This document shows positions 10,119-30,437 of a stretch of 36,057 nucleotides of DNA, piece after piece; position 1 is the first letter of the stretch; the number at the start of each line of letters is the position of its first letter. Under the pieces are notes generated by a model that worked only from the letters and a program-made list of their open reading frames with translations, searched no databases and was not told where the DNA came from. The translations under genes and the position numbers were made by a program. The stretch is from Clostridia bacterium (GTDB lineage Bacteria > Bacillota > Clostridia > Oscillospirales > CAG-272): assembly GCA_017468385.1 (NCBI GenBank), contig JAFUIQ010000015.1, positions 79,726 to 115,782 on the forward strand, written 5' to 3'.

Positions 10119-10137
10119 AACAATCACCTCATTGTAT

Positions 10138-10165: not shown

Positions 10166-10212
10166 TTGTATATACCATTGTGATTTTCACAAACATTGTT
10201 GACAATATCACA
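10153..10212. promoter_or_regulatory. operator region between GH127 and AraC genes
   Basis: A perfect 15-bp palindrome, TTGTGA-TTT-TCACAA (10178-10192), lies immediately before the araC-gene -35. Two direct copies of TATCACA flank it at 10153-10159 and 10206-10212, the second inside the araC-gene spacer. Direct TCACA repeats fit an AraC-type dimer; the palindrome fits a symmetric repressor or Crp-like dimer. Binding is inferred. Confidence 0.5.
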
Positions 10213-10227
10213 GTTTTTTGTTATACT
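10199..10227 (+). promoter_or_regulatory. near-consensus sigma-A promoter of the AraC gene
   Basis: TTGACA (10199-10204), 17 bases, TATACT (10222-10227). The predicted start near 10234 is only about 9 bases before the likely ATG at 10243, so the message would be almost leaderless. Confidence 0.75.
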
Positions 10228-10242
10228 ATCCTTGGTGATGCC

Positions 10243-11010: not shown

Positions 11011-11042
11011 AAAAGAGATATGCCGTCAGGCATATCTCTTTT
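11011..11042. terminator. bidirectional intrinsic terminator
   Basis: A perfect 14-bp stem (11011-11024 with 11029-11042) closes the loop GTCA, with a T-run on the plus side and an A-run on the other. It separates the AraC gene from the convergent oxidoreductase gene. Confidence 0.88.
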
Positions 11043-11046
11043 TTTA

Positions 11047-14097: not shown

Positions 14098-14116
14098 TTT
14101 TGTTGTGGCTCCCTTC

Positions 14117-15916: not shown

Positions 15917-15937
15917 TTTATCGATCCTCCTGTGGAA

Positions 15938-16309
15938 TTACTGCTTAGCCGCGCCAATGGTATACTCTGCGATTACGGCGCCGCCTTTAATATGCTTTTC
16001 GACAACTTCTGCTGCCTTTTCAGGGGTCATTTTTACGTAGGTAACCTTTTCCTTGTCCTTCTCGAACACCTCAACAACGGGCTCGTACTGGCAAATGCCG
16101 ATACAGCCGGTCTGGGTTACGGTGATCTTATCGGACAAACCTGCTGCGGAAATGGCATCAACAAAGGCATTGAGTACAGGTCGTGCGCCGGCTGCGATTC
16201 CGCATGTAGCCATACCGACTACGATTCTGGTTTCGCCGCTGCCTTTACGGACGGCAATCTTGTCCTGCATTTTCGCTTTGATCGCCAAGAGTTCTTCTAC
16301 AGACTTCAT
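15938..16309 (-). CDS. hndB: thioredoxin-like [2Fe-2S] hydrogenase subunit (HndB-like)
   Basis: 123 residues. An N-terminal helix is followed by a thioredoxin-like ferredoxin fold with 'ATCGIAAGARPV' (Cys36) and 'TGCIGICQYEP' (Cys69, Cys73). Only three obvious conserved cysteines are visible, so the cluster ligation may differ from the four-cysteine HndA and HndC domains. HndB is a small subunit of the tetrameric NADP-reducing type hydrogenase. AGGAAAGGA lies about 10 bases before ATG 16309. It opens the structural block hndBCD at the 3' end of the operon, right after the second ATPase gene. Confidence 0.88.
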   Translation of the reverse strand: MKSVEELLAIKAKMQDKIAVRKGSGETRIVVGMATCGIAAGARPVLNAFVDAISAAGLSDKITVTQTGCIGICQYEPVVEVFEKDKEKVTYVKMTPEKAAEVVEKHIKGGAVIAEYTIGAAKQ

Positions 16310-16338
16310 AACTGGTGGATCCTTTCCTGTTATATAAA

Positions 16339-16890
16339 TTATTCAAATAACTGATATTGCTCACGCAGATTGCCCTCGATCCATGTAAGGATCTCCGGTT
16401 CTGCAAGGGAAATCTCATCGCCCAGCACGGCACGCAATTCCGCACAGGAGAGATGAACGCTTCCCTTTTCCGTTTGGTGAGTATACGTGAAATTGACATC
16501 AGGGCTGCCCTGAATCAGAGTAGTAACGGTACTGACAATGTCACCCATGGGAACAAAATCAATATGATTCCGGCCGAACCGGCCGTGGATCACGGTACCG
16601 TGGTCAGGGGATTCAGAAGCCAGCGTGGACTTGATCTCCACAAATCCGCCGGTCATTTCCGCAAGCATCGTAAGAAACGGGATGCCCAGGCCCACCTTAC
16701 GGGTAGTGCGTGTGGTAAAAAACGGATCTCGCAATTTAGCAACTTGTTCCTGCGACATACCGCAGCCGTTATCAGCGACAGTAAAGTCCAGCCAATCGCC
16801 GTTTTCAATAATTTCCACGGAAATATCGCTGGCTTTTGCCCGCACCGAATTCATGGTGATATCCAGTACGTAAAGAGAAAAATCTTCCAT
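16339..16890 (-). CDS. GHKL/HATPase_c-fold ATP-binding protein, hydrogenase-associated
   Basis: 183 residues. The whole N-terminal two thirds is a histidine-kinase-like ATPase domain: an N-box asparagine (Asn14 in 'LDITMNSVRAK'), 'ADNGCGM' (39-45) and 'GLGIPF' (67-72). No phosphoacceptor histidine domain or sensor is present, so it is not a complete kinase. A tail of about 60 residues has no recognised domain. Such proteins recur in clostridial hydrogenase operons, but their target is unknown. It resembles anti-sigma or orphan kinases in size. GGGAGG lies 5 bases before ATG 16890; the PHP gene stops 11 bases upstream. Confidence 0.82.
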   Translation of the reverse strand: MEDFSLYVLDITMNSVRAKASDISVEIIENGDWLDFTVADNGCGMSQEQVAKLRDPFFTTRTTRKVGLGIPFLTMLAEMTGGFVEIKSTLASESPDHGTVIHGRFGRNHIDFVPMGDIVSTVTTLIQGSPDVNFTYTHQTEKGSVHLSCAELRAVLGDEISLAEPEILTWIEGNLREQYQLFE

Positions 16891-16901
16891 AATTCCCTCC
16901 C

Positions 16902-17642
16902 TTACACGTCTGTGCGGCGAAGATGTGCAAACAATCTTTCCGTAACCAGTTTGGATGAATAAGGCTCATCGTCCAAAAGGAAGCTATTTTCCGCTTCGGA
17001 TATGGCACCCAATTCATGCGCATCCGAAGAAACAACGTATGTCATCTCACCGATGTGCGGATACTGGCTTCGGTACTCTGTTAAGGATGCGGCATCATGC
17101 AATTCAAATGCAGTAAACGGTGGATCGGCGGGAAAGCCACCGAGCACAGATACCATTCCGTTGGATGTCCGGTCGATGTGAGCGGGATAAGCTATGCCGC
17201 TGCACGACTCCGCCAGGGAGTACGCCTCATCGATCGAGATGGTGGTAGCGTTGATCAGAAGATCCGCTTCCTCATCCAGAATCGTATCATCCTCATCCAT
17301 CACGTACTGATGCCCAAAGATTGCCGGTTTGTTTTTGATCCGAATACGACGCTCATCCACAACTTTTTGGAAAGCGGATGCATCGTCCAATGTGGGAAAG
17401 AGGCAAATGATATGTACATCTTCCGATGTGGTCAATTCCATGCCCGCAATAGGAATCAAGCCGTAACTGCGTGCGGCCTGAAAAAATGCGGGACAATTGC
17501 GAGTCGTGTTATGATCCGTCAGTGCAACGATCTGCAGTCCGTTCAATGCCGCCATACCCGCGATATTGGCAGGAGTTGCGTCATCATCCGCGCAAGGCGA
17601 AAGACAGGAATGAATGTGCAGATCATAGTAGTATCGGTTCAT
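16902..17642 (-). CDS. PHP-domain metal-dependent phosphoesterase
   Basis: 246 residues covering a complete PHP fold. Metal-binding residues are His9 and His11 ('DLHIHS'), Asp43-His44 ('LTDHNT'), Glu69 ('GMEL'), His155 ('AYPAHIDR') and Asp207-His209 ('SSDAHE'). Related single-domain PHP proteins hydrolyse phosphate esters, such as nucleoside 3',5'-bisphosphates or small phosphodiesters; the substrate here is unknown. Its ATG overlaps the stop of the preceding DRTGG gene by four bases (ATGA), so the two are translationally coupled. The placement among ATPase and DRTGG genes suggests a nucleotide-signal role in hydrogenase control, which is an inference. Confidence 0.88.
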   Translation of the reverse strand: MNRYYYDLHIHSCLSPCADDDATPANIAGMAALNGLQIVALTDHNTTRNCPAFFQAARSYGLIPIAGMELTTSEDVHIICLFPTLDDASAFQKVVDERRIRIKNKPAIFGHQYVMDEDDTILDEEADLLINATTISIDEAYSLAESCSGIAYPAHIDRTSNGMVSVLGGFPADPPFTAFELHDAASLTEYRSQYPHIGEMTYVVSSDAHELGAISEAENSFLLDDEPYSSKLVTERLFAHLRRTDV

Positions 17643-17974
17643 TGGTGCTCATCCGCACTTTTTGCGATACTCACGCACAAGTCATACGCGCTCTCGCAGG
17701 AGGAATAGATAGCAATTCCCTTTTCGTTGGCCGCCTCAAACACGTCCGGTGTCAGAGAAACGTTTTCGGCCAGGATAACCGCTGCGGCTTCCGTCAGACT
17801 GGCGACAGCCACCACATTGATGTTGTTCATGATGGTAATCCACAGATTGCCTGCCTGAATATGGCTCATGGCACGGCTTAAAAGATCACCCACATAGACA
17901 CCGTCGAAGTCATCCGCCGTGGGGCCGCAAAGATGTTTAAGGGAAACTGCCTGAGAAAAATCAGAAAGATGCAT
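17639..17974 (-). CDS. DRTGG-domain small protein (second copy in operon)
   Basis: 111 residues matching one DRTGG domain, the alpha/beta module also found in HPr kinase N-termini and pyrophosphatases. Recognisable segments are 'GVYVGDLLSRAMSHIQ', 'LWITIMNNINVVAVASLTE' and the end 'YSSCESAYDLCVSI'. Such stand-alone domains accompany bifurcating hydrogenase and sensory-hydrogenase genes in anaerobes and may bind a nucleotide, though no ligand is established. GGGGTGAT precedes ATG 17974. It overlaps the PHP gene by four bases and lies 23 bases behind the sensory hydrogenase gene. Confidence 0.82.
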   Translation of the reverse strand: MHLSDFSQAVSLKHLCGPTADDFDGVYVGDLLSRAMSHIQAGNLWITIMNNINVVAVASLTEAAAVILAENVSLTPDVFEAANEKGIAIYSSCESAYDLCVSIAKSADEHQ

Positions 17975-17997
17975 ATCATCACCCCGATAAAGGTTTG

Positions 17998-19314
17998 TTA
18001 GGTTTTCTTGTAATTGAGCGGTTTCAGTGCCTCCTCCGCCGCCTTTTCTTCATGCTGTTTCAGATAATCGTGGAACAGTGCCCGCATGATCACGGTGCAT
18101 TCATCTGCGTTTGTTTCGCCTTTGATAATATCCTCAGCGAAAGCGGTACAAGTCGGTGCACCGCAGGAACCGCAGTCCGTACCGGGAAGTGCGCGGCAGA
18201 TCTCCTCGATATCATGAAGCATCTGCATAGCCTTTGTCCGATCCTCAGCTAGACGGGCATTCGGTTCATAGGATAGTGCGGAATTCCGCATGGAGTCCTC
18301 CGGGATGGTATCCCCGGTGGGACGGTTCGGAGAAACGGGCAAATACCGCTTCAGATTCTGCAGTCTCGCCTGAGCGATATACGGATTGGCAACCGTCATA
18401 GCACCGCCGACGCAGCCGCCATTGCAAGCATTCAACTCAACGTAATCCAGATTGTTGATATCCTCATTATCAATCTGCTCCAGCACGCGAATGCAGTTTT
18501 CAATGCCATCCGCTGCCAGATACCGATGGTTGAATGTAGCGGTTGCTTCCCCGCCTGTGGATGCCCAACCGATGCCAACCATGCCGGATTCGGTGGCGGC
18601 ATTGGGTGTGTTTTCCACCTTCATAACCTCCAGCAAGCGGAAGTAGGCATCTCTCACGGAAATCACGTGATCGATGAGCTTTTCCTCGCCGGAGAAACCG
18701 TTCTTCACGTAGCTGACCTTTGCCGGACAAGGCGAGATAAAGAACACACCGATATCATCATTGCTGAGTTCCGGATGCTCTTCCAGCGCCTTCTTCCTGG
18801 CCATTTTAGCGGCTATGTCAACCGGAGGAAGAAGCGGGATAACGTGGTCACAGAGAAAGGGATAGTTCATACTGATAATGCGCATGATGGCGGGACAGGC
18901 CGAACTGATGACAGGCTTCGGAACGTTCGGATTATTCAAGTAAAGCCGTGTATACGCCGAGACGATCTCAGCGGCAATGGCCACTTCAAATACATCGTCG
19001 AACCCGATTGCCAAAAGTCCGGAAATCACATATCCGATATCATCCAGATTATCAAACTGACCGTACAAAGACGGAGCCGGAAGTGCAATTTTGTATTTGT
19101 ACTGATCCAGTTGAGAAAAAGAGTCGTGAATTGCTTTTTTTGCTTTATGAGGGCACACACGTATGCACTCGCCGCAATCGATGCAGCGCACGGAACTGAT
19201 GACCGCCCGACCGTCCCGAATACGAATCGCTTCGGTAGGACAGCGCTTCAGGCATGTTGTGCAACCTTTGCACTTGCTCTCATCAAGCGAAACGGAATGC
19301 TTGTATGTACTCAA
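17998..19314 (-). CDS. sensory-type [FeFe] hydrogenase-like iron-sulfur protein
   Basis: 438 residues. Two N-terminal [4Fe-4S] clusters (Cys15/18/21/25 and 44/47/50/54) lead to a reduced H-cluster domain and a C-terminal Fe-S domain with Cys381, 384, 389 and 406 ('DCGSCGAPTC'). The four H-cluster cysteines are kept: Cys140 in 'SSACPA', Cys196 in 'SPCPAK', Cys297 and Cys301 in 'NACNGGC'. The proton-relay cysteine before Cys140 is alanine (139). Reported HydS-type sensory hydrogenases carry the same change, so this is more likely an H2 or redox sensor than a bulk catalyst. No PAS domain is seen. I chose the TTG at 19314 because GAGGT lies 7 bases upstream; a TTG at 19353 lacks one. Confidence 0.85.
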   Translation of the reverse strand: MSTYKHSVSLDESKCKGCTTCLKRCPTEAIRIRDGRAVISSVRCIDCGECIRVCPHKAKKAIHDSFSQLDQYKYKIALPAPSLYGQFDNLDDIGYVISGLLAIGFDDVFEVAIAAEIVSAYTRLYLNNPNVPKPVISSACPAIMRIISMNYPFLCDHVIPLLPPVDIAAKMARKKALEEHPELSNDDIGVFFISPCPAKVSYVKNGFSGEEKLIDHVISVRDAYFRLLEVMKVENTPNAATESGMVGIGWASTGGEATATFNHRYLAADGIENCIRVLEQIDNEDINNLDYVELNACNGGCVGGAMTVANPYIAQARLQNLKRYLPVSPNRPTGDTIPEDSMRNSALSYEPNARLAEDRTKAMQMLHDIEEICRALPGTDCGSCGAPTCTAFAEDIIKGETNADECTVIMRALFHDYLKQHEEKAAEEALKPLNYKKT

Positions 19315-19358
19315 GACAGCACCTCGCCTTTCGAGCGGCGATATCAAGCACAACTCAT

Positions 19359-19781
19359 TCAGTAATTGACGCGCATGGTAATGGTTGTGCCTACGCCGAT
19401 CTCCGTATCAATTTGCATATAGTCGGTATACTTTTTCATGTTGGGAAGTCCCATTCCGGCACCAAAGCCCAAGGCGCGAATGTTATCGCTGGCAGTGGAA
19501 AAACCTTCCTGCATAGCCTTGTTGATGTCCGGGATACCGGGGCCTTTATCCGCCAGAATGATCTCGATGGCATCCTCACCGACGATTACATCCGCTGTAC
19601 CACCGTGTGCATGAATGACCATATTGATTTCGCCCTCATACATAGCAATGGAAACGCGACGCATAACGTCAGGAGAAAAACCAAGCTGCCGCAGTTTTTT
19701 CTTTACCATGACAGATGCTTCACCGGCGGAGGAAAAGTTTTCCCCATCCACATCGAAGTGGAAGCGAATCGCCTCAGACAT
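19359..19781 (-). CDS. RsbW/anti-sigma-like HATPase, hydrogenase-associated
   Basis: 140 residues, almost entirely one GHKL ATPase domain: Glu50-x-x-Asn53 in 'YEGEINMVIHA' (N-box), 'DKGPGI' (78-83) and 'GAGMGL' (107-112). Size and motif spacing match RsbW/SpoIIAB serine kinases, but no antagonist (STAS) gene is adjacent, so the partner is unknown. ATG 19781 is preferred to upstream in-frame starts because it follows GGGTGA and overlaps the end of the preceding DRTGG gene by only 8 bases. Together with the sensory hydrogenase-like protein it forms the conserved regulatory block of this operon. Confidence 0.84.
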   Translation of the reverse strand: MSEAIRFHFDVDGENFSSAGEASVMVKKKLRQLGFSPDVMRRVSIAMYEGEINMVIHAHGGTADVIVGEDAIEIILADKGPGIPDINKAMQEGFSTASDNIRALGFGAGMGLPNMKKYTDYMQIDTEIGVGTTITMRVNY

Positions 19782-20133
19782 GTTTGTCACCCGCATTGCC
19801 GCGCAGACCGGAATAGTACAAGTGACCACAAGCCTCATACGCACGCATGGGAGAACACATGACGACAATTCCGCATTCGCGGGCAAGCTCTACCATTTCC
19901 TCCGTGGGTGCCTTGTCACGGACAAACACCACACAGATCATGTCCATCATGCTGGCTGTACGGATAACCTGAGGGTTGATCAGACCAGTCAGCAAAACAC
20001 CTTGATCTTTAACATATGCCAAAACGTCACTCATCATATCGCTGCAGCAAGCGGAGTACACTTCATTCTGAAGATATTCCTCTCCGCAAAGCAGTTCTGC
20101 ATGGAGCAGCGACTGAATTTCATACATTTTCAC
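19774..20133 (-). CDS. DRTGG-domain small protein (first copy in operon)
   Basis: 119 residues. After a variable head ('QSLLHAELLCGEEYL'), the DRTGG core reads 'CCSDMMSDVLAYVKDQ', 'LLTGLINPQVIRTASMMD' and 'GIVVMCSPMRAYEACGHL'. It is only distantly similar to the other copy at 17639-17974 and probably plays a separate role. The GTG at 20133 has a GGAT-like site 6-7 bases before it; ATG 20127 is the alternative start. A 73-base gap with two hairpins separates it from hndA, the only sizeable gap in the operon. No function is established for this stand-alone form. Confidence 0.8.
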   Translation of the reverse strand: MKMYEIQSLLHAELLCGEEYLQNEVYSACCSDMMSDVLAYVKDQGVLLTGLINPQVIRTASMMDMICVVFVRDKAPTEEMVELARECGIVVMCSPMRAYEACGHLYYSGLRGNAGDKHV

Positions 20134-20145
20134 GAATGTATCCGC

Positions 20146-20198
20146 GCCGACGGTGTCGGCATCCTTTCACAGTAAGTGTAACGGCGGTAATGCACCGC
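20146..20198 (-). other. two small hairpins between hndA and the regulatory block
   Basis: One stem is GCCGAC-GGT-GTCGGC (20146-20160, perfect); the other pairs GCGGT (20184-20188) with ACCGC (20194-20198). Neither has a T-run on the minus strand, so they look more like processing, stability or translation elements than terminators. Confidence 0.45.
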
Positions 20199-20206
20199 TG
20201 GCGGGA

Positions 20207-20701
20207 TTACTGATATTTCTTAATAATATCGGGGAGCATGGACGGCTCCAGACGTCCGTATACATCCTCGCCGATGGTAAGTACAGGTGCAAGACCGCAT
20301 GCACCGATGCAGCGGGTTGCATCCAGACTGAACTTGAGATCGCTGGTCAGGCTGCCGCACTCGATGCCCAGCAGCTCTTCGCACTTCTCCATCAGTTTGC
20401 CTGCGCCTTTTACGTAGCAAGCCGTGCCCAGGCAGATGCTTACCGGGTTGGCACCCTTGGGGTTGAGCAGGAACTGGGAGTAGAAGGTAACAACGCCGAA
20501 CACCTCGGATACGGGGATGTCGAGACCGGCGGCGATCTCCTGCTGTACCTCAACAGGCAGATAACCGTAGATATCCTGTGCCTCTTGAAGGATGGGCATC
20601 AGAGCGCCTCTCTCATCCTTGTACTTGGCAATAACAGCGTCGAGAGCAGCCTTCTGCTCTGCTGTACCTTCAAAAGGTACAGTGGTCATTTTCTTTTTCA
20701 T
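20207..20701 (-). CDS. hndA: NAD(P)-linked hydrogenase [2Fe-2S] subunit (NuoE-like)
   Basis: 164 residues, the standard NuoE/HndA length. A helical N-terminal half ('LMPILQEAQDIYGYLP', 'VFGVVTFYSQF') is followed by a thioredoxin-like [2Fe-2S] fold with ligands Cys90, Cys95, Cys131 and Cys135. It passes electrons to or from the HndC flavin. AGGAGG lies 11 bases before ATG 20701. It is the first gene of the ten-gene operon, behind its own promoter, and is separated from the other structural genes hndBCD by six regulatory-looking genes. Confidence 0.95.
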   Translation of the reverse strand: MKKKMTTVPFEGTAEQKAALDAVIAKYKDERGALMPILQEAQDIYGYLPVEVQQEIAAGLDIPVSEVFGVVTFYSQFLLNPKGANPVSICLGTACYVKGAGKLMEKCEELLGIECGSLTSDLKFSLDATRCIGACGLAPVLTIGEDVYGRLEPSMLPDIIKKYQ

Positions 20702-20744
20702 GTTTAATCAGTCCTCCTGTATTGATTTCAAATCATTTTTTATG

Positions 20745-20773
20745 ATTATAACATGTTTAGCTATAATTGTCCA
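20745..20773 (-). promoter_or_regulatory. sigma-A promoter of the hydrogenase operon
   Basis: On the minus strand: TGGACA (20768-20773), 17-base spacer, TATAAT (20745-20750). The start near 20738 leaves a leader of about 37 bases. It lies 24 bases past the mrp stop; I see no strong terminator between them, so some read-through from mrp is possible. Confidence 0.75.
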
Positions 20774-20797
20774 CGTTAATTTGTATAAAAGCGCAAA

Positions 20798-21631
20798 TTA
20801 TTTGCAGAAATCCGCTACTGCATCGGCTGCCTTATCCAGGTAGTCGACCTCCATCAGTTCGATGATTCCCTTATCGCAAAGAGACGCCAGGTTCGGATCC
20901 AGAGGAACGCGTCCCAGGAAAGGGATTCCGTAAGTCTCGCACAGAGACTCCGCCTTGCTCTCACCGAAGATGTGCAGTTCCTTGCCGCAATCCGGGCACT
21001 TAACATAGGACATGTTCTCCACCAGACCGATTACAGGAATGTTCATGAGCTGTGCCATGTTCAATGCCTTCTTGACGATCATAGAAACAAGTTCCTGGGG
21101 GGTGGTAACGATGATGATTCCGTCGAGAGGAAGCGACTGGAATACAGTCAGCGGTACGTCGCCGGTTCCCGGAGGCATATCCACAAACATAAAGTCCACG
21201 TCGTTCCAGATCACATCGGTCCAGAACTGCTTCACCGTTCCCGCGATAACGGGACCGCGCCAGACCACAGGACGTGTCTCATCTTCCAGAAGAAGATTGA
21301 CGGACATCATCTGGATGCCTGTTTTGGTCTTCAACGGAATTAAGCCGTTGCCATCGCTGAGTACGTCTCCTGCAGTACCGAATGCCTTCGGAATGGAAGG
21401 ACCGGTAATATCTGCGTCGAGAACAGCCACACCGTAATCACGGCGGCGCATCAATACAGACATCATGGACGTAACGATGGATTTTCCCACGCCGCCTTTA
21501 CCGCTGACGATACCGATGACGTGGCGAACCGTGCTTTGAGGATTCAACGGTTCTTTTTCGATCTGTCCCTTGTCTCTGGACGAGCAGTTCGCTGTACAAG
21601 TGGAACAGTCATGGGTGCATTCTTCTGCCAT
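20798..21631 (-). CDS. Mrp/NBP35 (ApbC) family Fe-S cluster carrier ATPase
   Basis: 277 residues. The N-terminal tail is cysteine-rich (Cys5, 9, 12, 16). The deviant Walker A is GKGGVGKS (44-51), with 'DMPPGTGD' (151-158) and the cluster-bridging CPDC (212-215). The family binds a labile [4Fe-4S] cluster at the dimer interface and hands it to apo-proteins. Next to an operon whose products carry many Fe-S clusters, a maturation role for the hydrogenase is a reasonable inference, though Mrp proteins are general. AGGTGAG precedes ATG 21631. It has its own promoter and ends 24 bases before the hnd promoter. Confidence 0.92.
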   Translation of the reverse strand: MAEECTHDCSTCTANCSSRDKGQIEKEPLNPQSTVRHVIGIVSGKGGVGKSIVTSMMSVLMRRRDYGVAVLDADITGPSIPKAFGTAGDVLSDGNGLIPLKTKTGIQMMSVNLLLEDETRPVVWRGPVIAGTVKQFWTDVIWNDVDFMFVDMPPGTGDVPLTVFQSLPLDGIIIVTTPQELVSMIVKKALNMAQLMNIPVIGLVENMSYVKCPDCGKELHIFGESKAESLCETYGIPFLGRVPLDPNLASLCDKGIIELMEVDYLDKAADAVADFCK

Positions 21632-21675
21632 TGATTAAACTCACCTGCCAAAAGTAATTATAATATATCCATAAT

Positions 21676-21704
21676 ATTATACTGCATTTCGCACATAAAT
21701 ACAA
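21676..21704 (-). promoter_or_regulatory. sigma-A promoter of the mrp-like gene
   Basis: On the minus strand: TTGTAT (21699-21704), 17-base spacer, TATAAT (21676-21681). Predicted start near 21669, leader of about 38 bases. Confidence 0.7.
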
Positions 21705-21741
21705 GTCTTATTCACAAAGAAATTGCTGATTTTGTAAGAAA

Positions 21742-21779
21742 AAAGAGGAATACCGCATCAAGTGAGCGAATTCCTCTTT
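21742..21779 (-). terminator. intrinsic terminator after the P-type ATPase-like gene
   Basis: A 10-bp stem (21742-21751 with 21770-21779) closes an 18-base loop that can itself pair CGC with GCG. A run of T follows on the minus strand. It lies 12 bases after the stop and would end the long ruvC-to-ATPase transcript. Confidence 0.75.
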
Positions 21780-21791
21780 ATTCATGCAAGT

Positions 21792-24434
21792 CTATGACCT
21801 GTTATACAGTTTCATCATCACAAATACGACTGCAGAAGGAAGAAGCGACAGCAGCCATACGCGAAAATCAACAACAGCAAATTTTGTAATGGCCAGATAC
21901 ACCATGGGGCATATCGCGGCGGCAGCAGCCAAGAGATACAGAATGTGGATGACACCTGCCGCAGCGTGCCGCCCGGACGATGATTTCCCCCCCATACTGC
22001 ATGTGTATACGGCAGCCAAAGACACAGCCACTGTGCTGATGACCTGCATGGTAAGGATGGCTTCCGGATCAAAAATCCAGGAAAGATTCCGACACAGCAG
22101 AACAGACAGTGATATAAGCAAACCGGCCAGGATTCCCACGCCAACGGCGGCAAGTACGCCGGTTCTCCAGCCAGGCAAAGTCAGTTGTTCCATTGAAAAG
22201 CTGAATATGTTCTGCCTTGGCTTCCGAAACGCGATCAAAAGAACGGAGAAACAGTCCAGAATGCATCCCAAAAACAGGATTGCCACCGGTGTTAACAACG
22301 GCAACTCCGTCAGAATGGCGGCCAGCATCAAAACAACACGCAAGGTTTGCGTGATCAATAAGTACAGAGAGGCGCATCGCAAATTGGCCATTGCGCTGCG
22401 GCAAAAGGCCAGCATGGGAAGTACGTCGGATGAACCTCCGCTGCCGGGACAACAGCCGGGATCGTCCTTATGGAAAATGATTCCTTCGGCTCGCCGCGAG
22501 AGAATCTCCGCGGTGTTCTCCGCACCTCTTTCCACAACAATGGATACAGAATGTTTCAAACACGGCAAATCTGCCAGAGCATCTCCAACATATACTGTTT
22601 CACTTGCGTGGTTTCGGATTTCACACAGTGCTGCTTCCCTGTCGGACACCGGAATCTGCACCAGCAGATTTCCTGCATCACTCGACGCCAGGGCATCCGC
22701 AATCGCACCAATTCCCGTGCACACACTATCGTTCTCCGTCAAGAGACCGATTTCCGATACAGTATGCTTTGCACTTTGCACATCTTCGCAAAATACGGCC
22801 ATGCGGATTCCGCCCTGTCGGCACGACTCGATCCATGCCGGGATGTCTGTTTCCACCGCGTTATTCACAGAAAAGCATCCGAGGAACGTCATATTGTTCT
22901 GCACAGCGGCGGGCATGGATAAATCCTGAAAAGGAGAGACGCGCCGGGCTATAGCCATCGTTCTGCGGTTGTGTGTTTTTTCCTCGCGTGCGTATGCCAT
23001 CAGGCCGGAATACATCTCTCTTGTGAGAAGCTGCGCTTCACCATGGATCTGTATCCGTGAGCAGCACCGAAGTACATCCTCCACGCTCCCGCACACATAT
23101 GCATACGTTGTATCATTCTCGGAAATATGGGCGGTACAGAGGGAGTTGCAAGTCACCGTTTCAAGACAAGCGGCTTTCTTGACAGAGGTGTGCGTCTCCG
23201 GATAGGAGGCAAGCAAGGCGGTCATGTATGCACGCAAACTGTTTGACGATTGACGTGTGCCCCCGCCGTCCAAAGTCGGAGTGGAGGTGGAGCACTGCAT
23301 CATCAAAGAAGTCAGATGCATCACTTCATTCGGCATGGGAGCATCCGGTGATGCAGGAACAATAATTCCGTCCTCTTTCATCCAGGAATACAGTGACAAA
23401 CGGCCGGATAAAAACAGACGCTCGCTGGAAAATACAAGCCAATCCGCGCGCCCCATCTTCTCCACAGACTTGATAGACTTGATTCGGTCTGTCCCCTTTG
23501 TCTCCAGCTGCAGAAGCTGCATGGAGCAGGCAAAAAAGGCAGTGGCGGCAGTATTCAGAAACTCGCCCATGGACGCAACGGCCAATGCCAACACGGACAG
23601 AAACAGCTGATCCAGGGAGATCCGTCCATCCGAGGTAAATATACCCACAAACAGTAAGACGACACTGATGAGAATCATCCAGAGAGAAACATTCTTACTC
23701 CAACGAGAAACATGCCGAAATGTCTCTGTATCGGTATCCGCGCTGACACGGATATAGCCGCCATTTGCGTATGCATACGTCCGCTCGCCCGTGGCAACCG
23801 CAACGCCGACAGCACTTCCGCCGATTACTGTGGAAGCGGCAAACAAGATGTTACTGCGCTCCCACCAGACCGAATCCTCGGGTACTACATCGCTCGGATT
23901 CTTGTGGACACAACGGCGTTTCCCTGAGAAATATGACTCCGACACCTCTACTTCTCCGGAGAGCAGTCGAGTGTCGCAAACCACCGTGTCCCCGGGGGAA
24001 AACAGGAGAATATCCCCTTCCACTACCTGATCTGCAAACAGATACTTGCATTTTCCGTCGCGCATCACGCGACACCGCGGCGTTTTATATCGCTGTGCAC
24101 GCAGTAATACGGTACGGGATATCAGACACGTTCCCACACGTAAAGCAACCGAAAGAATCAATAGCGCAAGAACCGCCCAGATAGCATCGCCTTTTCCAAA
24201 AAACGCGGTGAGGCAGACGGTCAGAACAAACAATACCGTAGCATAGTCCAGCACCGAGCGTAAAACGGCAGGAGCCAAAGGAGGGGTGTCGATTACCCAC
24301 AAGGAATGACCGCCATTTCTGCGTCGCATGGCAGCAGCGCGCTCGGTTAACCCGATATAGCGGTTGACGGAAAGCGCACGCAGCACATCTTCGGCACGCA
24401 TAGCATGCCAACGATTGGATTTAATATTTCTCAT
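21792..24434 (-). CDS. degenerate P-type ATPase homologue (probable pseudo-ATPase)
   Basis: 880 residues, full length for a P2/P3-like cation ATPase. Helices are near 57-75, 83-105, 248-266, 276-306 and about six from 683 to 876. Each catalytic motif has a recognisable position but a changed sequence. The actuator TGES reads SGKR (170-173). PEGL in helix 4 reads GEFL (290-293). The phosphorylation motif SDKTGT reads SERLFL (337-342), with no aspartate. KGAPE reads CGSVE (448-452). TGD reads CED (549-551). GDGxNDxP reads GDALADLP (617-624), keeping both aspartates. ATP-driven transport therefore looks impossible, yet the frame is intact. The start is six bases behind clpE, so translation is probably coupled. 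A regulatory or scaffold role is an inference. Confidence 0.85.
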   Translation of the reverse strand: MRNIKSNRWHAMRAEDVLRALSVNRYIGLTERAAAMRRRNGGHSLWVIDTPPLAPAVLRSVLDYATVLFVLTVCLTAFFGKGDAIWAVLALLILSVALRVGTCLISRTVLLRAQRYKTPRCRVMRDGKCKYLFADQVVEGDILLFSPGDTVVCDTRLLSGEVEVSESYFSGKRRCVHKNPSDVVPEDSVWWERSNILFAASTVIGGSAVGVAVATGERTYAYANGGYIRVSADTDTETFRHVSRWSKNVSLWMILISVVLLFVGIFTSDGRISLDQLFLSVLALAVASMGEFLNTAATAFFACSMQLLQLETKGTDRIKSIKSVEKMGRADWLVFSSERLFLSGRLSLYSWMKEDGIIVPASPDAPMPNEVMHLTSLMMQCSTSTPTLDGGGTRQSSNSLRAYMTALLASYPETHTSVKKAACLETVTCNSLCTAHISENDTTYAYVCGSVEDVLRCCSRIQIHGEAQLLTREMYSGLMAYAREEKTHNRRTMAIARRVSPFQDLSMPAAVQNNMTFLGCFSVNNAVETDIPAWIESCRQGGIRMAVFCEDVQSAKHTVSEIGLLTENDSVCTGIGAIADALASSDAGNLLVQIPVSDREAALCEIRNHASETVYVGDALADLPCLKHSVSIVVERGAENTAEILSRRAEGIIFHKDDPGCCPGSGGSSDVLPMLAFCRSAMANLRCASLYLLITQTLRVVLMLAAILTELPLLTPVAILFLGCILDCFSVLLIAFRKPRQNIFSFSMEQLTLPGWRTGVLAAVGVGILAGLLISLSVLLCRNLSWIFDPEAILTMQVISTVAVSLAAVYTCSMGGKSSSGRHAAAGVIHILYLLAAAAAICPMVYLAITKFAVVDFRVWLLSLLPSAVVFVMMKLYNRS

Positions 24435-24440
24435 CGCTAA

Positions 24441-26777
24441 TCAAAGGGCCTGCACAAAGAGTTCGCCATCCCGCACATTCACGTGCAAAGCGGACACCTG
24501 GCCCTGCTGATCTATGATTGCGTTGGCAATGCGATCCTCGATCTCCGTTTGAATGAAACGGCGCATATTCCGTGCACCGTACTTCGTGGAATAGGATTTT
24601 TCCGCAATCCGCTTCAGTGCCTGATCGGTCCATGTGAGTTTCATGGACTTTTCAGCCAGAACGGATGCACAATCCGCCATCATTAAAGCCGCGATGCTGA
24701 CAAAATCCTCTTTGGTCAGCGTACGGAATGTGATAATTTCATCCACGCGGTTCAAAAACTCGGGGCGCAGGAATTCAGACAGGGATTTCATAGTACGCTC
24801 GTGCGCAACCGTTTCCTGCTTCTCTGCAAATCCCGCCGTATAGGAGGCATTGGAAGAACCGGCATTGGTGGTCATAACAATGACCGTGTTCTCGAAACTG
24901 ACCACTCTTCCCTGCGCATCGGTGACGCGACCGTCATCCAGAATCTGGAGCAGAATGTTCATCACATCCGGATGGGCCTTTTCGATCTCATCGAACAGCA
25001 CAACAGAATACGGGCGGCGGCGGATCTTTTCAGTCAGCTGCCCGGCATCATCATATCCCACGTATCCGGGAGGCGCACCGATAATGCGCGACACGGAGAA
25101 TTTATCCATGAACTCGCTCATGTCCAGACGGATCAGCGTTTCCGGCGTGGAGAAAAGCTCACTGGCCAGAACTTTTACCAATTCCGTTTTACCCACCCCA
25201 GTAGGTCCGGCAAAAATGAAAGAAACCGGTTTTCTCTTATAAGCCATACCGACGCGGTTGCGGCGTACAGCCCGGGCAACGGCAGACACCGCCTCAGGCT
25301 GTCCGATGATGCGGCGGGACAGATTCCCCTCCAGGCTGGACAGACGTGCGTATTCACTCTCATGGATGCTGGATGCAGGAATGCCAGTCCAAATTTCAAT
25401 CACGTTGGCCAGATCCGCTACGGTCATTTCGATTTTGGCGCAAGCATCGGATACCGTGTTGTACCGTTCCTCCAGGCGGATCAGCTCAACCTTTAGATCG
25501 GCCATGCGCTTGAAGGTCTCCTCATCCGTTTCCCCTTGCGAAGCCTTGGCAGACAACGCATCTGCTTCTGTTTGCAAAGCGCTACGCTTGTCGGACAGCT
25601 CCCGTTTCTCATTGATGTCCGCCGAGGAAAGCGAGATCTGCGATGCGGCCTCGTCGATCAGATCGATAGCCTTATCGGGCAAATACCGCTCTGTGATATA
25701 CCGCTCGCTGAGAGACACAGCGGCATGCAAAACACTGTCGGGAATCAAAATCCCGTGGTATGCCTCGTAATAGTGCTTGATACCGCGCAAAATGGATTCT
25801 GTATCCTCAAGGCTCGGTTCGTTTACCGTTACGGGCTGGAAACGACGCTCCAATGCAGAGTCTTTTTCGATATATTTACGGTACTCTGTCAGCGTGGTCG
25901 CGCCGATCACCTGAATCTCTCCGCGGGACAACGCCGGTTTCAGAATGTTGGCGGCGTTCATGCTTCCCTCTGCGTCACCGGCACCGACGATGTTGTGCAC
26001 CTCATCAATCACCAGAATCACGTTGCCGGCGCTCTTGACATCGGCAAGCAATCCCATCATGCGGGATTCAAACTGGCCGCGGAACTGTGTCCCCGCCACC
26101 AGCGCGGTCAGATCCACAAGACAAACCTCACATCCGCGAAGACGATACGGCACATTCCCCTCGGCAATTCGCTGTGCCAATGCTTCCGCAATGGCCGTTT
26201 TACCAACGCCGGGCTCGCCGATCAAGCAGGGATTGTTCTTCTGACGGCGGCACAAAATCTGTATCACGCGATCCAGTTCCCGATCCCGTCCCACCACGCG
26301 ATCCAATTCGCCGTTTTTGGCACGCTGGGTCAGATTATGGCAATACGTAGCCAGGAATTTTTTCTCTTTCTTCTTTTCGGATGCCTTTTTTTCATTTTTC
26401 GGCGCATCCTGCGGCTTCATGAATGGCATCTGCATAGCACCCCGGAACAATTTCTGCAAATCAATTGCAGGAGCACGGCTCTCACCGGGAAGATCTCCGG
26501 AAGACTTTTCACCATCTTCGCTGCTATCCTCGGACACATTCTCCGATGTATCCTCGCCGCTGTCTTCCATTCCCTCGACCAGGCTTTCCATCTCGGAACT
26601 CATCCGTTCCACATCCTCATCGCTGAGTCCCATATTGGCAATAATATCATTTACGGGTTTGATACCCAGTTCCTTTGCACAGCGAATACACAATCCGTCC
26701 TGCTTGGGAACACCGTTCTCCAAATGAGATATAAAAACAACGGCCATGCGTTTTTTACATCTGGAACACATCACCAT
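24441..26777 (-). CDS. clpE: ClpE-type Hsp100 ATPase
   Basis: 778 residues. An N-terminal zinc finger (Cys4, 7, 30, 33) replaces the usual Clp N-domain, as in ClpE. A D/E/S-rich linker (about 52-100) follows. AAA+ domain 1 has GEPGVGKT (187-194) and VIDEVH (256-261). A short coiled-coil middle domain lies at about 388-450. AAA+ domain 2 has GPTGVGKT (524-531) and LFDEIEK (594-600). A loop 'YTAGFAEK' near 646-653 resembles the ClpP-docking tripeptide, reading AGF. It would unfold damaged proteins for ClpP; no clpP is in the window. GGTGA precedes ATG 26777 by seven bases. No CtsR box is seen. It is coupled to the P-type ATPase homologue downstream. Confidence 0.9.
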   Translation of the reverse strand: MVMCSRCKKRMAVVFISHLENGVPKQDGLCIRCAKELGIKPVNDIIANMGLSDEDVERMSSEMESLVEGMEDSGEDTSENVSEDSSEDGEKSSGDLPGESRAPAIDLQKLFRGAMQMPFMKPQDAPKNEKKASEKKKEKKFLATYCHNLTQRAKNGELDRVVGRDRELDRVIQILCRRQKNNPCLIGEPGVGKTAIAEALAQRIAEGNVPYRLRGCEVCLVDLTALVAGTQFRGQFESRMMGLLADVKSAGNVILVIDEVHNIVGAGDAEGSMNAANILKPALSRGEIQVIGATTLTEYRKYIEKDSALERRFQPVTVNEPSLEDTESILRGIKHYYEAYHGILIPDSVLHAAVSLSERYITERYLPDKAIDLIDEAASQISLSSADINEKRELSDKRSALQTEADALSAKASQGETDEETFKRMADLKVELIRLEERYNTVSDACAKIEMTVADLANVIEIWTGIPASSIHESEYARLSSLEGNLSRRIIGQPEAVSAVARAVRRNRVGMAYKRKPVSFIFAGPTGVGKTELVKVLASELFSTPETLIRLDMSEFMDKFSVSRIIGAPPGYVGYDDAGQLTEKIRRRPYSVVLFDEIEKAHPDVMNILLQILDDGRVTDAQGRVVSFENTVIVMTTNAGSSNASYTAGFAEKQETVAHERTMKSLSEFLRPEFLNRVDEIITFRTLTKEDFVSIAALMMADCASVLAEKSMKLTWTDQALKRIAEKSYSTKYGARNMRRFIQTEIEDRIANAIIDQQGQVSALHVNVRDGELFVQAL

Positions 26778-26793
26778 ATATCGATCACCTTAT

Positions 26794-26808
26794 CTGCGCC
26801 CCGCGCAG
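26794..26808 (-). other. GC-rich hairpin in front of clpE
   Basis: CTGCGC (26794-26799) and GCGCAG (26803-26808) form a perfect 6-bp stem with a 3-base loop, 17 bases before the clpE ATG and next to its ribosome-binding site. No T-run follows on the minus strand, so it is not a standard terminator. Confidence 0.45.
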
Positions 26809-26824
26809 CCTTTCTAAAAACACG

Positions 26825-27550
26825 TTACGGAAGAATCTGTTTGATCACATCATCAACCGAATGATTGGCAAAAAACTTCAAAATTACGGAATTCTCGATC
26901 ACAGACTCACTGAACAAATCCGGCGAGATCGATGCCATTGCATGGATGAACGGCACAGACAACGAGCTAAGAACCCACGCCCACACCAAAGCGATCACCA
27001 CGCCCACAAGCAAGCCGAGCATGGCGTTGGCGGTTTTTAAAACCGGAAGCTGGAAAATCAAGTCCAGGATCCACGTGAGGAGTTTCAGCACAGCCACTGC
27101 CGCGATAAATATCAAAAGGAATGCCAGCACGTTGGAGATCACATCCACCACCGGAGACGCGATTGTGTCGGAAAGCGTGTCCACCACACTCTCGGATGCA
27201 TCCGGATTTACGGGAACCGTCTGGCTGAGGGTGTTTTCATCCGCATTGTAGCGATCGATGATCTGTTGAAATGCATCGGGCATATCCTGGAACATTTTCT
27301 CCAGATCAAACGTGCCCTCGTCGTTCCGGGACAGTGATTTTATGGTATCCCCGATGGATTCGGATACATTCTCCATCAGATCGGAATTACGAATATATTG
27401 TGCAGCAGTAGGGGTGAATGCATACGCCAGGCACAGGGCGGCCACCAGCGTAAACACACCCATTACCGATTTGATAAAGCCACGCTTCGCGCCAAGTATA
27501 ATGGACGTAACACAAACCAACAGAATGATGCCGTCAAATACCAAACTCAT
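26825..27550 (-). CDS. CvpA-family membrane protein
   Basis: 241 residues. Two N-terminal helices ('GIILLVCVTSIILGAKRGF' and 'SVMGVFTLVAALCLAYAF') are followed by a loop of about 80 polar, acidic residues and two C-terminal helices (about 135-165 and 173-197). The pattern G-x-K-R-G-F after helix 1 is the CvpA hallmark. The family is named for colicin V production but is widespread, and its molecular role in Firmicutes is not settled. The loop between helices is longer than in the typical 160-180-residue proteins. GAGGTGA precedes ATG 27550. It lies between the DUF5711 gene and clpE in the long operon. Confidence 0.85.
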   Translation of the reverse strand: MSLVFDGIILLVCVTSIILGAKRGFIKSVMGVFTLVAALCLAYAFTPTAAQYIRNSDLMENVSESIGDTIKSLSRNDEGTFDLEKMFQDMPDAFQQIIDRYNADENTLSQTVPVNPDASESVVDTLSDTIASPVVDVISNVLAFLLIFIAAVAVLKLLTWILDLIFQLPVLKTANAMLGLLVGVVIALVWAWVLSSLSVPFIHAMASISPDLFSESVIENSVILKFFANHSVDDVIKQILP

Positions 27551-27577
27551 AATCGATCACCTCGTATGATATAATAA

Positions 27578-28783
27578 TCAGTTAAAATCCACAGAGGAAG
27601 CTCCGCCCGGGAAGCACAGCACCGCTCGCCCTTCCACTTCGCACACCTGCACCAGACTGCCGACAAACTGCACCGATCTGGCATCGGCTTTGGTGATATA
27701 TTCCACCGTGCTGCCATAGGATATGTAAACACCGTCATGCACGTCCGACGCAGTAACCGACGAAACTCTTTTATCCACCGCGGTATCCATCACAGACACC
27801 CCGTCAAAATTATACACGAGAATCCGATTTGTATTCCCGAGCACATTCTCACTGCACACAATCGCCGCCAGGCGATCGGAAACGTCAAACATAGAAAGCG
27901 TCATGGGGGAAAGCGAAACCTCCGCCATTACATTCCCCTCGGGCGATACAATCATGAAAGAACTGTCACAGACAACAGCTAAATTACCGCCGTTCATATA
28001 TCGGCAATACAGCGGGAGTCTTTCCCCCAGGGAGACTGTACGGGCTTCCTCCGATCCGATCCGCAAAAAGGATATCTCCGATTTCAGTGTCCAATCATCC
28101 GGACGAGAGGAAAGGATGGCGATGTTCTCACCGTCTTCATCCAGCGCAATGCCGGTGACATAAGAATCCCTGTAAATACGCTCAATATTCTTAAAGGATG
28201 CGTTGAATACATCAATCACATACTTCGATTCCGAACTCCGTGAGACAATCGCATATTGTCCTCCATCGCTGATGGAGGCGCAAAGGATGTCCCCCTCCAT
28301 AGTCCCGCCGGATACCCGCGCCAAAGTAGTCAGAAGCGAATACTCCCGACCGCCTTCATCGTAGAGAAGCATATACTTGTTTCCGGTAAGAAGCACCGGC
28401 GTTTTGTAGGAAACAGAATCACGGAACACGGAATTCCCGGCCGCATCGTACAGACGCACCCCGGAAGAACCGGCAACCGCCAGCGTATTTTTGAAAACGG
28501 AGAAGGACATATTCTGTTGTTCTTCATACACAACGGATGCGTATGCCCCGGAGGCTGACGATGAAATATTGAAATCGCGCATCAAGTACAGAAAATTTTC
28601 GTATGTAATACTGCTTCGGCCTGCCACAAGCATACCCGCAAGATATACCGTGAACAGCAAAAGCGTGATCCACTTCGCAGCACAAAAGCGGGAGGATATG
28701 TGCATATAATACCGATTATATGTTTGATTGTCCCGCATGATTGCCTCTGTGCGGATAGGCACCCGCTTATTACTCTGTGCCAT
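27578..28783 (-). CDS. DUF5711-like single-pass membrane protein with beta-propeller-like exterior
   Basis: 401 residues. A cytoplasmic head of about 35 residues and one helix (about 37-56, 'WITLLLFTVYLAGMLV') are followed by some 340 residues outside the membrane. These show repeated short strands such as 'GVRLYDAAGNSVF', 'ASISDGGQYAIVS' and 'GIALDEDGENIAILS', the rhythm of WD/PQQ-type propeller blades. No catalytic motif is visible. I recognise it as DUF5711-like from the layout and its position beside cvpA, an arrangement found in related Clostridia. Function unknown. GAGG precedes ATG 28783 by seven bases. Confidence 0.72.
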   Translation of the reverse strand: MAQSNKRVPIRTEAIMRDNQTYNRYYMHISSRFCAAKWITLLLFTVYLAGMLVAGRSSITYENFLYLMRDFNISSSASGAYASVVYEEQQNMSFSVFKNTLAVAGSSGVRLYDAAGNSVFRDSVSYKTPVLLTGNKYMLLYDEGGREYSLLTTLARVSGGTMEGDILCASISDGGQYAIVSRSSESKYVIDVFNASFKNIERIYRDSYVTGIALDEDGENIAILSSRPDDWTLKSEISFLRIGSEEARTVSLGERLPLYCRYMNGGNLAVVCDSSFMIVSPEGNVMAEVSLSPMTLSMFDVSDRLAAIVCSENVLGNTNRILVYNFDGVSVMDTAVDKRVSSVTASDVHDGVYISYGSTVEYITKADARSVQFVGSLVQVCEVEGRAVLCFPGGASSVDFN

Positions 28784-28813
28784 CGGTGAACCTCCTTGTC
28801 ATACTATTATCTT

Positions 28814-29608
28814 TCACAAGCACATCCAGTGAATTTCCCGATCGTATTTCACGTCGCTGAGATACAATCCGTCCGGCGGCGCGGTGAATCCGGCACTGGT
28901 CCGTCTGCACTCATCCAGCGCCACGCGAATGTCCTCGGATGTTTTTCGTCCGTATGCCACATCCATGAGGGATCCGGCCATAATACGGACCATGTTGTAC
29001 AGAAAGCCGTTCGCTTCCACATGATAAATAATCTGCTCACCGTCCCGGCGCACATTCGCCGCATATACTGTCCGCACAGTATCCTCCACGGAGGAACCGG
29101 CTGACATAAATCCGGCGAAATCATGCTCGCCCACAAACATCTGTGCCACCGCATTCATTTCGCTCAAGGCAGCAGCATCAATGCGTCTGGGCTCATGATG
29201 CGCCCGGTTCATCAGAAACGGATCGCGGTACGGAGCGTTGTGTATACGATACTCGTAGGCTTTGCTGATCACACTGTATCGCGGATGAAAATCATCCGTG
29301 ACGATGGCCGCGGCCACCACAGCAATATCCACCGGCAAAAGCACGTTGACGGCCCGGTGCATCTTCTCTGGCGGGATACGGCACCAATCGGTGCGGGAAA
29401 CGGACTCATCCGCCGGAACTACCGTGGCACAAAAACCAAGGGCATGTACCCCACTGTCCGTCCGACTGCATCCTGTCACATGACACGGAAAGCCAAACAA
29501 GCGGGAGAACGCCTCGGTAAGCACAGCCTGCACCGTAATGCCGTTGGGCTGTGTCTGAAAACCACAGTACCCTGCACCGTTATATCGAATCTTAACAAGT
29601 ATTTTCAT
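28814..29608 (-). CDS. truA: tRNA pseudouridine(38-40) synthase
   Basis: 264 residues. The catalytic aspartate is Asp51 in SRTDSGVHA (48-56). The family segment 'YNMVRIMAGSLMDVAYG' lies near 205-221. It converts uridines 38-40 of the tRNA anticodon arm to pseudouridine in the cytoplasm. The start is four bases after the ecfT stop, so the ribosome-binding site lies inside ecfT. The ecfA1-ecfA2-ecfT-truA order is the standard Firmicutes arrangement, usually found behind ribosomal-protein genes, which are absent here. Confidence 0.96.
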   Translation of the reverse strand: MKILVKIRYNGAGYCGFQTQPNGITVQAVLTEAFSRLFGFPCHVTGCSRTDSGVHALGFCATVVPADESVSRTDWCRIPPEKMHRAVNVLLPVDIAVVAAAIVTDDFHPRYSVISKAYEYRIHNAPYRDPFLMNRAHHEPRRIDAAALSEMNAVAQMFVGEHDFAGFMSAGSSVEDTVRTVYAANVRRDGEQIIYHVEANGFLYNMVRIMAGSLMDVAYGRKTSEDIRVALDECRRTSAGFTAPPDGLYLSDVKYDREIHWMCL

Positions 29609-29612
29609 AGCA

Positions 29613-30437
29613 TTACCATGACAGCATATAGCCGCCGAACTGATTCAGCACAAGAATTCCCGCGCCAAGTGCAATAACAAGGATACAAAACACATAATCC
29701 ATCGCACCGGCGTGGAGCACGTTCATACGGGTGCGTCCGTCACCGCCTGTGTAGCAACGGCATTCCATGGCGGTTGCCAACTCATCGGCACGTCGGAATG
29801 CGGATACAAACAAGGGCACGAGAATCGGCACCAGTGCTTTTGCGCGCTGGAGAAGCGATCCGGTGGAAAAATCCGCACCGCGTGCCTTCTGGGCGTTCAT
29901 GATTTTCTGCGTTTCTTCCGTCAGTGTGGGGATGAAACGCAAGGCAATGGTCATCATCATGGAAAACTCATGCACAGGCAAGCCGATCTTTTTCAGGGGA
30001 GAAAGCAGCTGTTCCAGTCCATCCGTGAGAGCAATCGGCGTGGTGGTGAACGTCATAAAGATCGTGGTACCGACCAGCAGAATGATAATGCGAACCGCGA
30101 TCAAAATCGCATTGATGATGCCTTCCAGATAGATCTGGATAAAGCCGAGGGAAACAAGCAGAGTCTCCCCTTCCATCCAGAAAATGTTGATCACTGCAGT
30201 AAACAACAGGATAATCACCAGCGGCTTCATGCTTTTCAAAACGATCCGCAGCGGAATACCGGACACGGCGATCAAGAAAATGGCCGACAGGAGCAGCAGC
30301 GCAAACGCGTACAGATTTTTGGCGAGAAATACCGCCACGATATACATGATCGCTGCAATAATCTTCGCACGGGGATCCATGCGGTGAAGGATAGAATTCC
30401 CCTCACAATACTGACCAAAGGAAATATCCAGATTCAT
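29613..30437 (-). CDS. ecfT: ECF transporter transmembrane component EcfT
   Basis: 274 residues with hydrophobic helices near 25-60, 70-88, 105-130, 198-214 and 245-265. The coupling helices that plug into the ATPases are recognisable: 'QKARGAD' (183-189) and 'AMECRCYTGG' (223-232), the second having C-R-C where A-R-C/S is more usual. EcfT joins two ATPases to interchangeable substrate-binding S components for vitamin and metal uptake. No S component is encoded in the window. It overlaps ecfA2 by four bases. 'DPRAK' (21-25) after helix-0 is typical. Confidence 0.93.
   Translation of the reverse strand: MNLDISFGQYCEGNSILHRMDPRAKIIAAIMYIVAVFLAKNLYAFALLLLSAIFLIAVSGIPLRIVLKSMKPLVIILLFTAVINIFWMEGETLLVSLGFIQIYLEGIINAILIAVRIIILLVGTTIFMTFTTTPIALTDGLEQLLSPLKKIGLPVHEFSMMMTIALRFIPTLTEETQKIMNAQKARGADFSTGSLLQRAKALVPILVPLFVSAFRRADELATAMECRCYTGGDGRTRMNVLHAGAMDYVFCILVIALGAGILVLNQFGGYMLSW

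Follow-up and report, generated by a model that had tools for sequence, protein, structure and literature searches.

The window analysed here is a stretch of 36,057 nucleotides from contig JAFUIQ010000015.1 of a Clostridia bacterium (assembly GCA_017468385.1), in which a gene of the P-type ATPase family lies directly behind clpE on the minus strand (Table 1). Its reading frame, given as an intact 880-codon frame in the original prediction made from this DNA, proves to be uninterrupted, with 880 amino acids (aa), a stop codon and zero internal stops. The P-type ATPase fold and descent hold both for the A domain and for the whole length, with homology beyond chance: the Pfam family E1-E2_ATPase (PF00122) matches the protein at E=1.2e-25 (90.5 bits, cut-off 28.1), and LMCA1, the solved Ca2+-ATPase of Listeria, matches residues 39-845 (phmmer E=3.8e-30). 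For NCBIfam TIGR01494 the protein scores 39.4 bits, under the cut-off of 62.3, compared with 336.9 bits for a canonical copy of the same genome (L216). DKTGT is found in four P-type ATPases of this genome, among which one or two (L216 and L218) resemble Ca2+ pumps. Profile A2 gives 460, 373 and 325 bits for LMCA1, SPCA1 and SERCA1, respectively, and the nearest group to the window gene and its relatives (hereafter pseudo copies) in our first tree consists of canonical P2A-like pumps. The window gene is a P2A (Ca2+ pump-type) ATPase descendant that lacks the motifs of phosphoenzyme chemistry.

Table 1. Features of the pseudo-ATPase gene and of its upstream neighbours (window positions; counts refer to the 131 aligned copies unless another total is given).
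Feature	Position	Strand	Remarks
Pseudo-P2A-type ATPase (assignment from sequence)	21792..24434	(-)	880 aa, open frame; PF00122; LMCA1 homology
A domain, about residues 113-240	23715..24098	(-)	Best conserved f1 pseudo region; identity 0.375, most invariant columns of A2
TGES position, SGKR (S170-G171-K172-R173)	23916..23927	(-)	TGES Glu retained 7/131
M4 Glu291 (PEGL Glu), retained	23562..23564	(-)	Glu 122/131
DKTGT position, SSERL (S336-S337-E338-R339-L340)	23415..23429	(-)	Phospho-Asp position = Asp in 1/131
N domain, about residues 353-515	22890..23378	(-)	ATP-contact residues lost; domain missing in L180, L189
GDGxND position, GDALAD (residues 617-622)	22569..22586	(-)	First Asp retained 6/131, last 68/131
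Gly666-Gly667, clade-specific	22434..22439	(-)	Gly 123 and 124 of 131; canonical Asp 10/10, Asn 8/10
M5 Arg699, at Glu of canonical SN..E	22338..22340	(-)	Arg 121, Lys 10 of 131
M6 Gly723, at Asn of canonical N..TD	22266..22268	(-)	Gly 129/131; canonical Asn 10/10
M6 Asp727, at Asp of canonical N..TD	22254..22256	(-)	Asp 130/131
clpE, AAA+ unfoldase, Cys-rich N-terminus, xGF loop	24441..26777	(-)	Directly upstream; clpE upstream in 126/131 orthologues
CvpA/Colicin_V family membrane protein, same gene string	26825..27550	(-)	PF02674; upstream in 106/109 loci
DUF5711 protein, same gene string	27578..28783	(-)	PF18975; upstream in 105/109 loci

The catalytic motifs were compared in 131 near-complete copies from 130 genomes of the window's taxonomic family (f1), the window's own copy included, aligned beside ten canonical pumps; this set omits L047, which is truncated at a contig end, L212-L214, which are split or truncated, and those of the 162 genomes positive in the profile search described below whose loci were not fetched. 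Residue mapping confirms the original prediction that TGES reads SGKR and KGAPE reads CGSVE (C448-G-S-V-E452) in the window protein. DKTGT is rewritten as predicted, with no Asp in either register, but the predicted register was one residue off. PEGL has lost its Pro and Gly but keeps its Glu (E291), and GDGxND is broken, yet both of its Asp are present. The TGD position reads C549-E-D551, with an Asp that 51 of the 131 copies retain. The claim that all motifs were rewritten was therefore slightly overstated. The features of an active P-type ATPase, i.e. the DKTGT Asp, the TGES Glu, the GDGxND Mg2+ site and the N-domain ATP contacts, are lacking.

This loss is shared by the relatives. Intact DKTGT, which in close homologues would have meant simple decay of the window gene, occurs in 0/131 copies; most copies have Pro at the phosphorylation position (74/131), and an acid lies two residues after this position in 78/131 (Glu 52, Asp 26; Glu338 in the window). 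Of the N-domain columns that are conserved in pumps, the KGAP Lys and the Phe are each kept in 1/131 and a second Lys in 8/131, with Arg at this position in 50/131; by analogy with SERCA, the Phe and Lys columns would contact ATP. Compared with the P2A Ca2+-ATPases (e.g. LMCA1, SPCA1 and SERCA), the pseudo clade shares the order of domains and matches by profile over the full length, but is without the phospho-Asp, TGES and GDGxND, and its ion site keeps only the M4 Glu and the M6 Asp. Only in L049:8169-10940 (+) is the phosphorylation position occupied by Asp (DREGA). This copy keeps TGE, while the Lys and Thr of DKTGT are gone; it possibly represents the least-degraded state.

We then measured selection as the ratio of nonsynonymous to synonymous substitution rates (dN/dS; Nei-Gojobori method) for pairs at 68% identity or more and with dS no higher than 2, skipping all others. 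Among the relatives the ratio is far below 1, as the original prediction of a retained gene would have it, with a median of 0.116 and a maximum of 0.298 (38 pairs; the window gene, for which the sample holds no close relative, is in none of them). Taken separately, the A, N, P2 and M5-M10 parts remain below 0.4 where computable. Both genes were measured in 35 pairs, and in 33 of these the ratio is lower in clpE than in the pseudo-ATPase. These values point to purifying selection on the gene among relatives of the window gene. Together with the 131 orthologues, they led us to reject the decay of one single gene.

The distribution of conserved residues differs between pumps and pseudo copies. 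Mean pairwise identity in the canonical pumps is 0.737 for P1, 0.640 for P2 and 0.545 for the A domain (n=10), while in the pseudo clade it is highest for the A domain (0.375), followed by M5-M6 (0.317), M3-M4 (0.314), P2 (0.270), N (0.244) and P1 (0.238); the pseudo values come from 1500 random pairs, and the canonical set is small and less diverged overall. Constraint has moved from the P domain, where it is strongest in pumps, to the A domain and the membrane core. Besides the membrane site, A199, G666, G667 and Y691 are clade-specific near-invariants.

The former ion-binding site in the membrane is rewritten in f1. By their motifs, the M4 Glu, M5 Glu, M6 Asn and M6 Asp are taken to correspond to SERCA Glu309, Glu771, Asn796 and Asp800. 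Read against the columns of the canonical pump at L050, the M5 Asn is kept in 11 of the 131 f1 copies, the M5 Glu and M6 Asn in none and the M6 Thr in three. The P2A Ca2+ site (Glu309, Asn768, Glu771, Asn796, Thr799 and Asp800 in SERCA numbering, assigned by motif) is no longer complete in f1, and a P3A-like arrangement with M5 Arg and M6 Asp is present (R699 and D727 in the window, at the Glu771 and Asp800 positions by the same motifs). The M5 Arg/Lys and M6 Asp are concordant in 149 of the 150 copies read, although such counts are inflated by relatedness and the independent events are few: the pair is present in 130/131 copies and in five divergent f1 copies (L180, L186, L188, L190 and L199), is wholly missing from L182, L189 and all 12 copies of a second family, f17 (see below), and is discordant only in L141. 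The f17 copies retain an M4 acid in 11 of 12 cases (9 Asp, 2 Glu). The plant plasma-membrane H+-ATPase (P3A) appears to share this M5 Arg/M6 Asp design: according to PMC5387105, its Arg655 corresponds to SERCA Glu771, its Asp684 overlaps Asp800 and the R655K variant supports growth. The plant enzyme is active, whereas the pseudo clade has lost catalysis. In LMCA1, an Arg from another position fills site I, according to PMC11977196.

More divergent copies were sought through clpE in 29 f1 genomes without a match at E<=1e-150. These genomes gave 24 good ClpE matches, of which 22 loci were fetched (all but G023 and G040). A diverged relative of the ATPase lies behind clpE in eight of the 22 (in L181 only as a fragment at a contig end), and DKTGT was not found in any of these eight. 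The whole N domain is missing from two of these eight, L180 (698 aa) and L189 (684 aa), in which M4 and the first P strand are followed at once by the P domain's second half (profile spans 3-342 then 540-889, and 9-340 then 531-908, respectively); L189 also has neither the M4 Glu nor the Arg-Asp pair. With the N domain lost, ATP use is not required in these two copies. The 1155-residue copy L188:3058-6525 (+) is very divergent and contains insertions, with clpE still adjoining upstream.

The pseudo-ATPase gene is part of a conserved gene string, in which clpE is its closest neighbour. The coupling to clpE noted earlier from the window is one of position: the end of clpE and the start codon of the ATPase are 6 bases apart on the same strand, and the 126 orthologues preceded by clpE, likewise on the same strand, have a median gap of 23.5 bp (96/126 at most 50 bp, largest 489). 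Among the five other orthologues, L093 and L165 have a piece of clpE upstream by a looser search, and the starts of L071 and L072 lie close to the ends of their contigs. At the locus of the fifth, L109:1984-4734 (+), a phosphatase-like gene lies upstream, and at L212:3915-6756 (+), of the same genus (g44), the frame is split in two. The usual order is EcfA-EcfT-TruA-DUF5711-CvpA-ClpE-ATPase, and the best ATPase match adjoins clpE in 20/20 loci fetched with flanks, which were hand-picked from the matches of the orthologue search. The downstream side is variable, with Mrp or NuoE in 35/104 loci. In the window, a run resembling hydrogenase-linked genes (12361-20701 (-)) lies behind the ATPase and includes a thioredoxin-like ferredoxin, an Fe-hydrogenase domain protein and a HATPase domain protein.

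In the window no CtsR box matches exactly, and the weak matches at 32853 and 33979 are at chance level (27 of 100 shuffles gave as many). A promoter scan of 20500-29700 gave 7 matches against 10.4 expected, none of them in the 6-base gap; one weak match lies inside clpE on the minus strand (25099-25126). The idea that carriers have an altered ClpE was rejected, as their xGF loop has no special feature; in a second set, of carriers and non-carriers mixed, the loop is present in 23/24 clpE.

Copies of the gene are widespread in f1. All four other sampled genomes of the window's genus contain an orthologue (31-36% identity), and profile A1, built from 20 proteins, finds matches at E<=1e-150 in 162/395 f1 genomes (70/171 of good quality), covering 41/71 genera. 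Of the 134 matches fetched at this threshold, 131 are one long open frame; contig ends truncate two others, and the frame of L212 is split. A first reading of bit scores that restricted the gene to f1 was wrong, because clpE-anchored checks found further copies in f17. Thirty genomes of the order had a ClpE match, and the 20 loci fetched, one per genome, represent 16 other families (L226, L233 and L234 with less than 1.3 kb behind clpE); a dead ATPase lies behind clpE in one of them (L220, in f17), which also has CvpA, DUF5711 and TruA upstream of clpE. A search with the L220 copy then found a dead copy in 12 of 13 f17 genomes, always adjoining clpE, with a spacing that ranges from a 4-bp overlap to a 34-bp gap; the 13th genome gave only a canonical pump. 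The profile searches missed these copies because canonical pumps outscore them. Strong class matches outside f1 are canonical in 8/8 cases, in a search blind to copies as diverged as those of f17, and none of 397 other genomes of a phylum sample passes E<=1e-164, a threshold at which such diverged copies would be missed.

Phylogenetic trees, built with FastTree, group these copies together. In the first tree, the f1 sample (46 copies from the set of 131 plus the 8 divergent ones) forms one clade, 54/54, with a support of 0.954; in the second, 35 f1 and 12 f17 copies (47/47) form one clade, separate from canonical pumps, with a support of 0.999. Support on long branches can mislead, and gene order provides independent support. 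The single clade and the position of the dead f17 copies behind clpE make one old loss, before the two families of the order diverged, likely. A transfer between f1 and f17 is a possible alternative to shared origin.

Known proteins offer only partial parallels. TMEM94 is P-type-like, with A, P and N-like domains, ten membrane helices and no TGES; no ATPase activity was detected for it by one group, and a phosphatidic-acid-shaped lipid occupies its membrane core (PMC12134183). Another group claims a pump function without TGES or GDGVND for the same protein under the name ERMA (PMC13322241). The likeness to our clade is one of description, and TMEM94/ERMA differs in that it retains the Asp in DKQGIL, is a human endoplasmic reticulum (ER) protein and has a disputed activity. 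In Plasmodium, guanylyl cyclase beta (GC-beta) carries a degenerate P4-ATPase domain (PMC6592433), which is eukaryotic and cyclase-fused, whereas the window protein is bacterial, free-standing and P2. These two are the nearest precedents in the sources consulted. The phospho-Asp is the defining feature of P-type ATPases: a large survey reports DKTGT in 99.77% of the identified members, with 22 exceptions that are single point changes only (PMC3896382). The original prediction knew of no described family of this kind, and the literature searched, which covered few subscription papers, yielded no bacterial pseudo-P-type ATPase family; among the listed papers joining ClpE and P-type ATPases, judged by title and the start of the abstract, none deals with such a gene. 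If the interpretation below is true, this would be the first such family in bacteria.

The gene is almost certainly a dead pump under selection. The earlier description as a retained, repurposed pseudo-ATPase is well supported by the 0/131 intact DKTGT motifs and the low dN/dS of relatives, and the proposed role as a sensor, scaffold or regulator seems to fit the domain evidence. The best overall explanation, to which we assign a probability of about 0.5, is a membrane scaffold or sensor that is under selection, needs no ATP and acts together with the products of a co-translated operon, ClpE being the nearest candidate. A scaffold or sensor role independent of ATP, considered by itself, is rather probable. 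A partnership with ClpE is plausible from gene position, which is why docking to ClpE ranks first among possible partners, but direct binding of the two can be proposed only tentatively. In such a protein (i) the A domain and the M4-M6 core would carry the function without need of ATP; (ii) the P domain would serve as a structural connection, and the N domain could be dispensed with, at least in two copies; (iii) the M5 Arg-M6 Asp pair would, in f1, plug or sense the former ion site or make it a proton-type site; and (iv) the protein would dock or regulate ClpE at the membrane. A fuller scenario is more doubtful: stripped once of its ATP chemistry at the base of the two families, the protein may have become an ATP-free receptor or anchor that places or controls ClpE, with the M5 Arg/M6 Asp pair as a sensing switch in one family and the N domain discarded in some members. 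A selected clade without the phospho-Asp, at a mostly fixed locus, shows that the P-type fold can be useful without pumping; its N-domain-less members offer a small version of the protein, and annotation may label genes of this kind as cation pumps.

Several observations weigh against this explanation. The ATPase is missing behind clpE in 14 of the 22 clpE loci of otherwise negative f1 genomes, in the DNA examined, and in 19/20 clpE loci of other families. L109 is a true exception to the clpE linkage, and L212 is also without clpE upstream. The TruA-DUF5711-CvpA-clpE string is conserved upstream too, so that adjacency to clpE may reflect operon inheritance. The clpE genes of carriers give no signal of alteration (xGF loop in 114/114 parsed of 115 found in the first set). 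Finally, the Arg-Asp pair, missing in 14 copies, cannot be a universal core function.

Other explanations were weighed against the same data. Slow decay of a pseudogene would account for the faster evolution of the gene relative to clpE (33% identity to L037, a locus from the window's genus, against 71% for clpE; dN/dS above that of clpE in nearly all pairs) and for its loss or shortening in some lineages. The window frame is intact, however, 131/134 fetched matches are one long frame, clade-specific near-invariants exist and the dN/dS of relatives, with its maximum of 0.298, is not near 1, which refutes decay for the sampled relatives, the window species itself having no close relative in the sample; we regard decay as extremely improbable. 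An ATP-driven pump with a different phospho-acceptor could use the acid two residues after the lost phospho-Asp, and pumping has been claimed for ERMA/TMEM94 without TGES and GDGVND, though with the DKQGIL Asp retained (PMC13322241). That acid is not universal, the ATP-contact residues are lost and two copies are missing the N domain, which makes such a pump very improbable.

An ion channel or passive ATP-free carrier, in which the Arg-Asp pair would gate a leak of H+ or cations, is the strongest of the rivals but still unlikely. The M4 Glu (122/131), M6 Asp (130/131) and M5 Arg/Lys (131/131) favour it, in the same arrangement as Arg655/Asp684 of the plant H+ pump (PMC5387105); the M6 Asn and Thr of pumps are lost (Gly 129/131; Thr 3/131), and the 12 f17 copies keep the gene without the pair. 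The protein could also be a regulatory subunit, i.e. a dead paralogue pairing with a live P2A Ca2+ pump of the same cell, such as L216 or L218 among the four DKTGT ATPases of its own genome. In G011 a canonical DKTGT pump is convergent beside the dead copy (L050:6385-9171 (+) and 9320-12115 (-)); the corresponding place in G116, a genome of that genus, holds part of an ATPase gene that runs off the contig (L064:7036-7872 (-)). Neighbouring pumps are confined to these cases in one genus, while the stable neighbours are clpE, cvpA and DUF5711, and we consider this role improbable. A lipid-handling function, by analogy with TMEM94, which holds a lipid in its membrane core without detected ATPase activity (PMC12134183), might be conceivable but is given a similarly low weight. 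An ATP-independent scaffold or sensor remains our preferred explanation.

Some copies carry additional C-terminal tails. All nine analysed members of genus g53 (L091, L092, L093, L094, L095, L097, L098, L099 and L101) have tails of 218-389 residues, apparently disordered, with a conserved G[IL]GYLFS near the end. A Pfam scan of four tails (L060, L091, L099 and L102) found no domain. By the P2 topology the tails would be cytosolic, which would suit a binding role. L052, L060 and L082 have a different C-terminal tail of 144-175 residues with a shared, small domain-like end. A scan of genome contigs gave one distant actinobacterial match.

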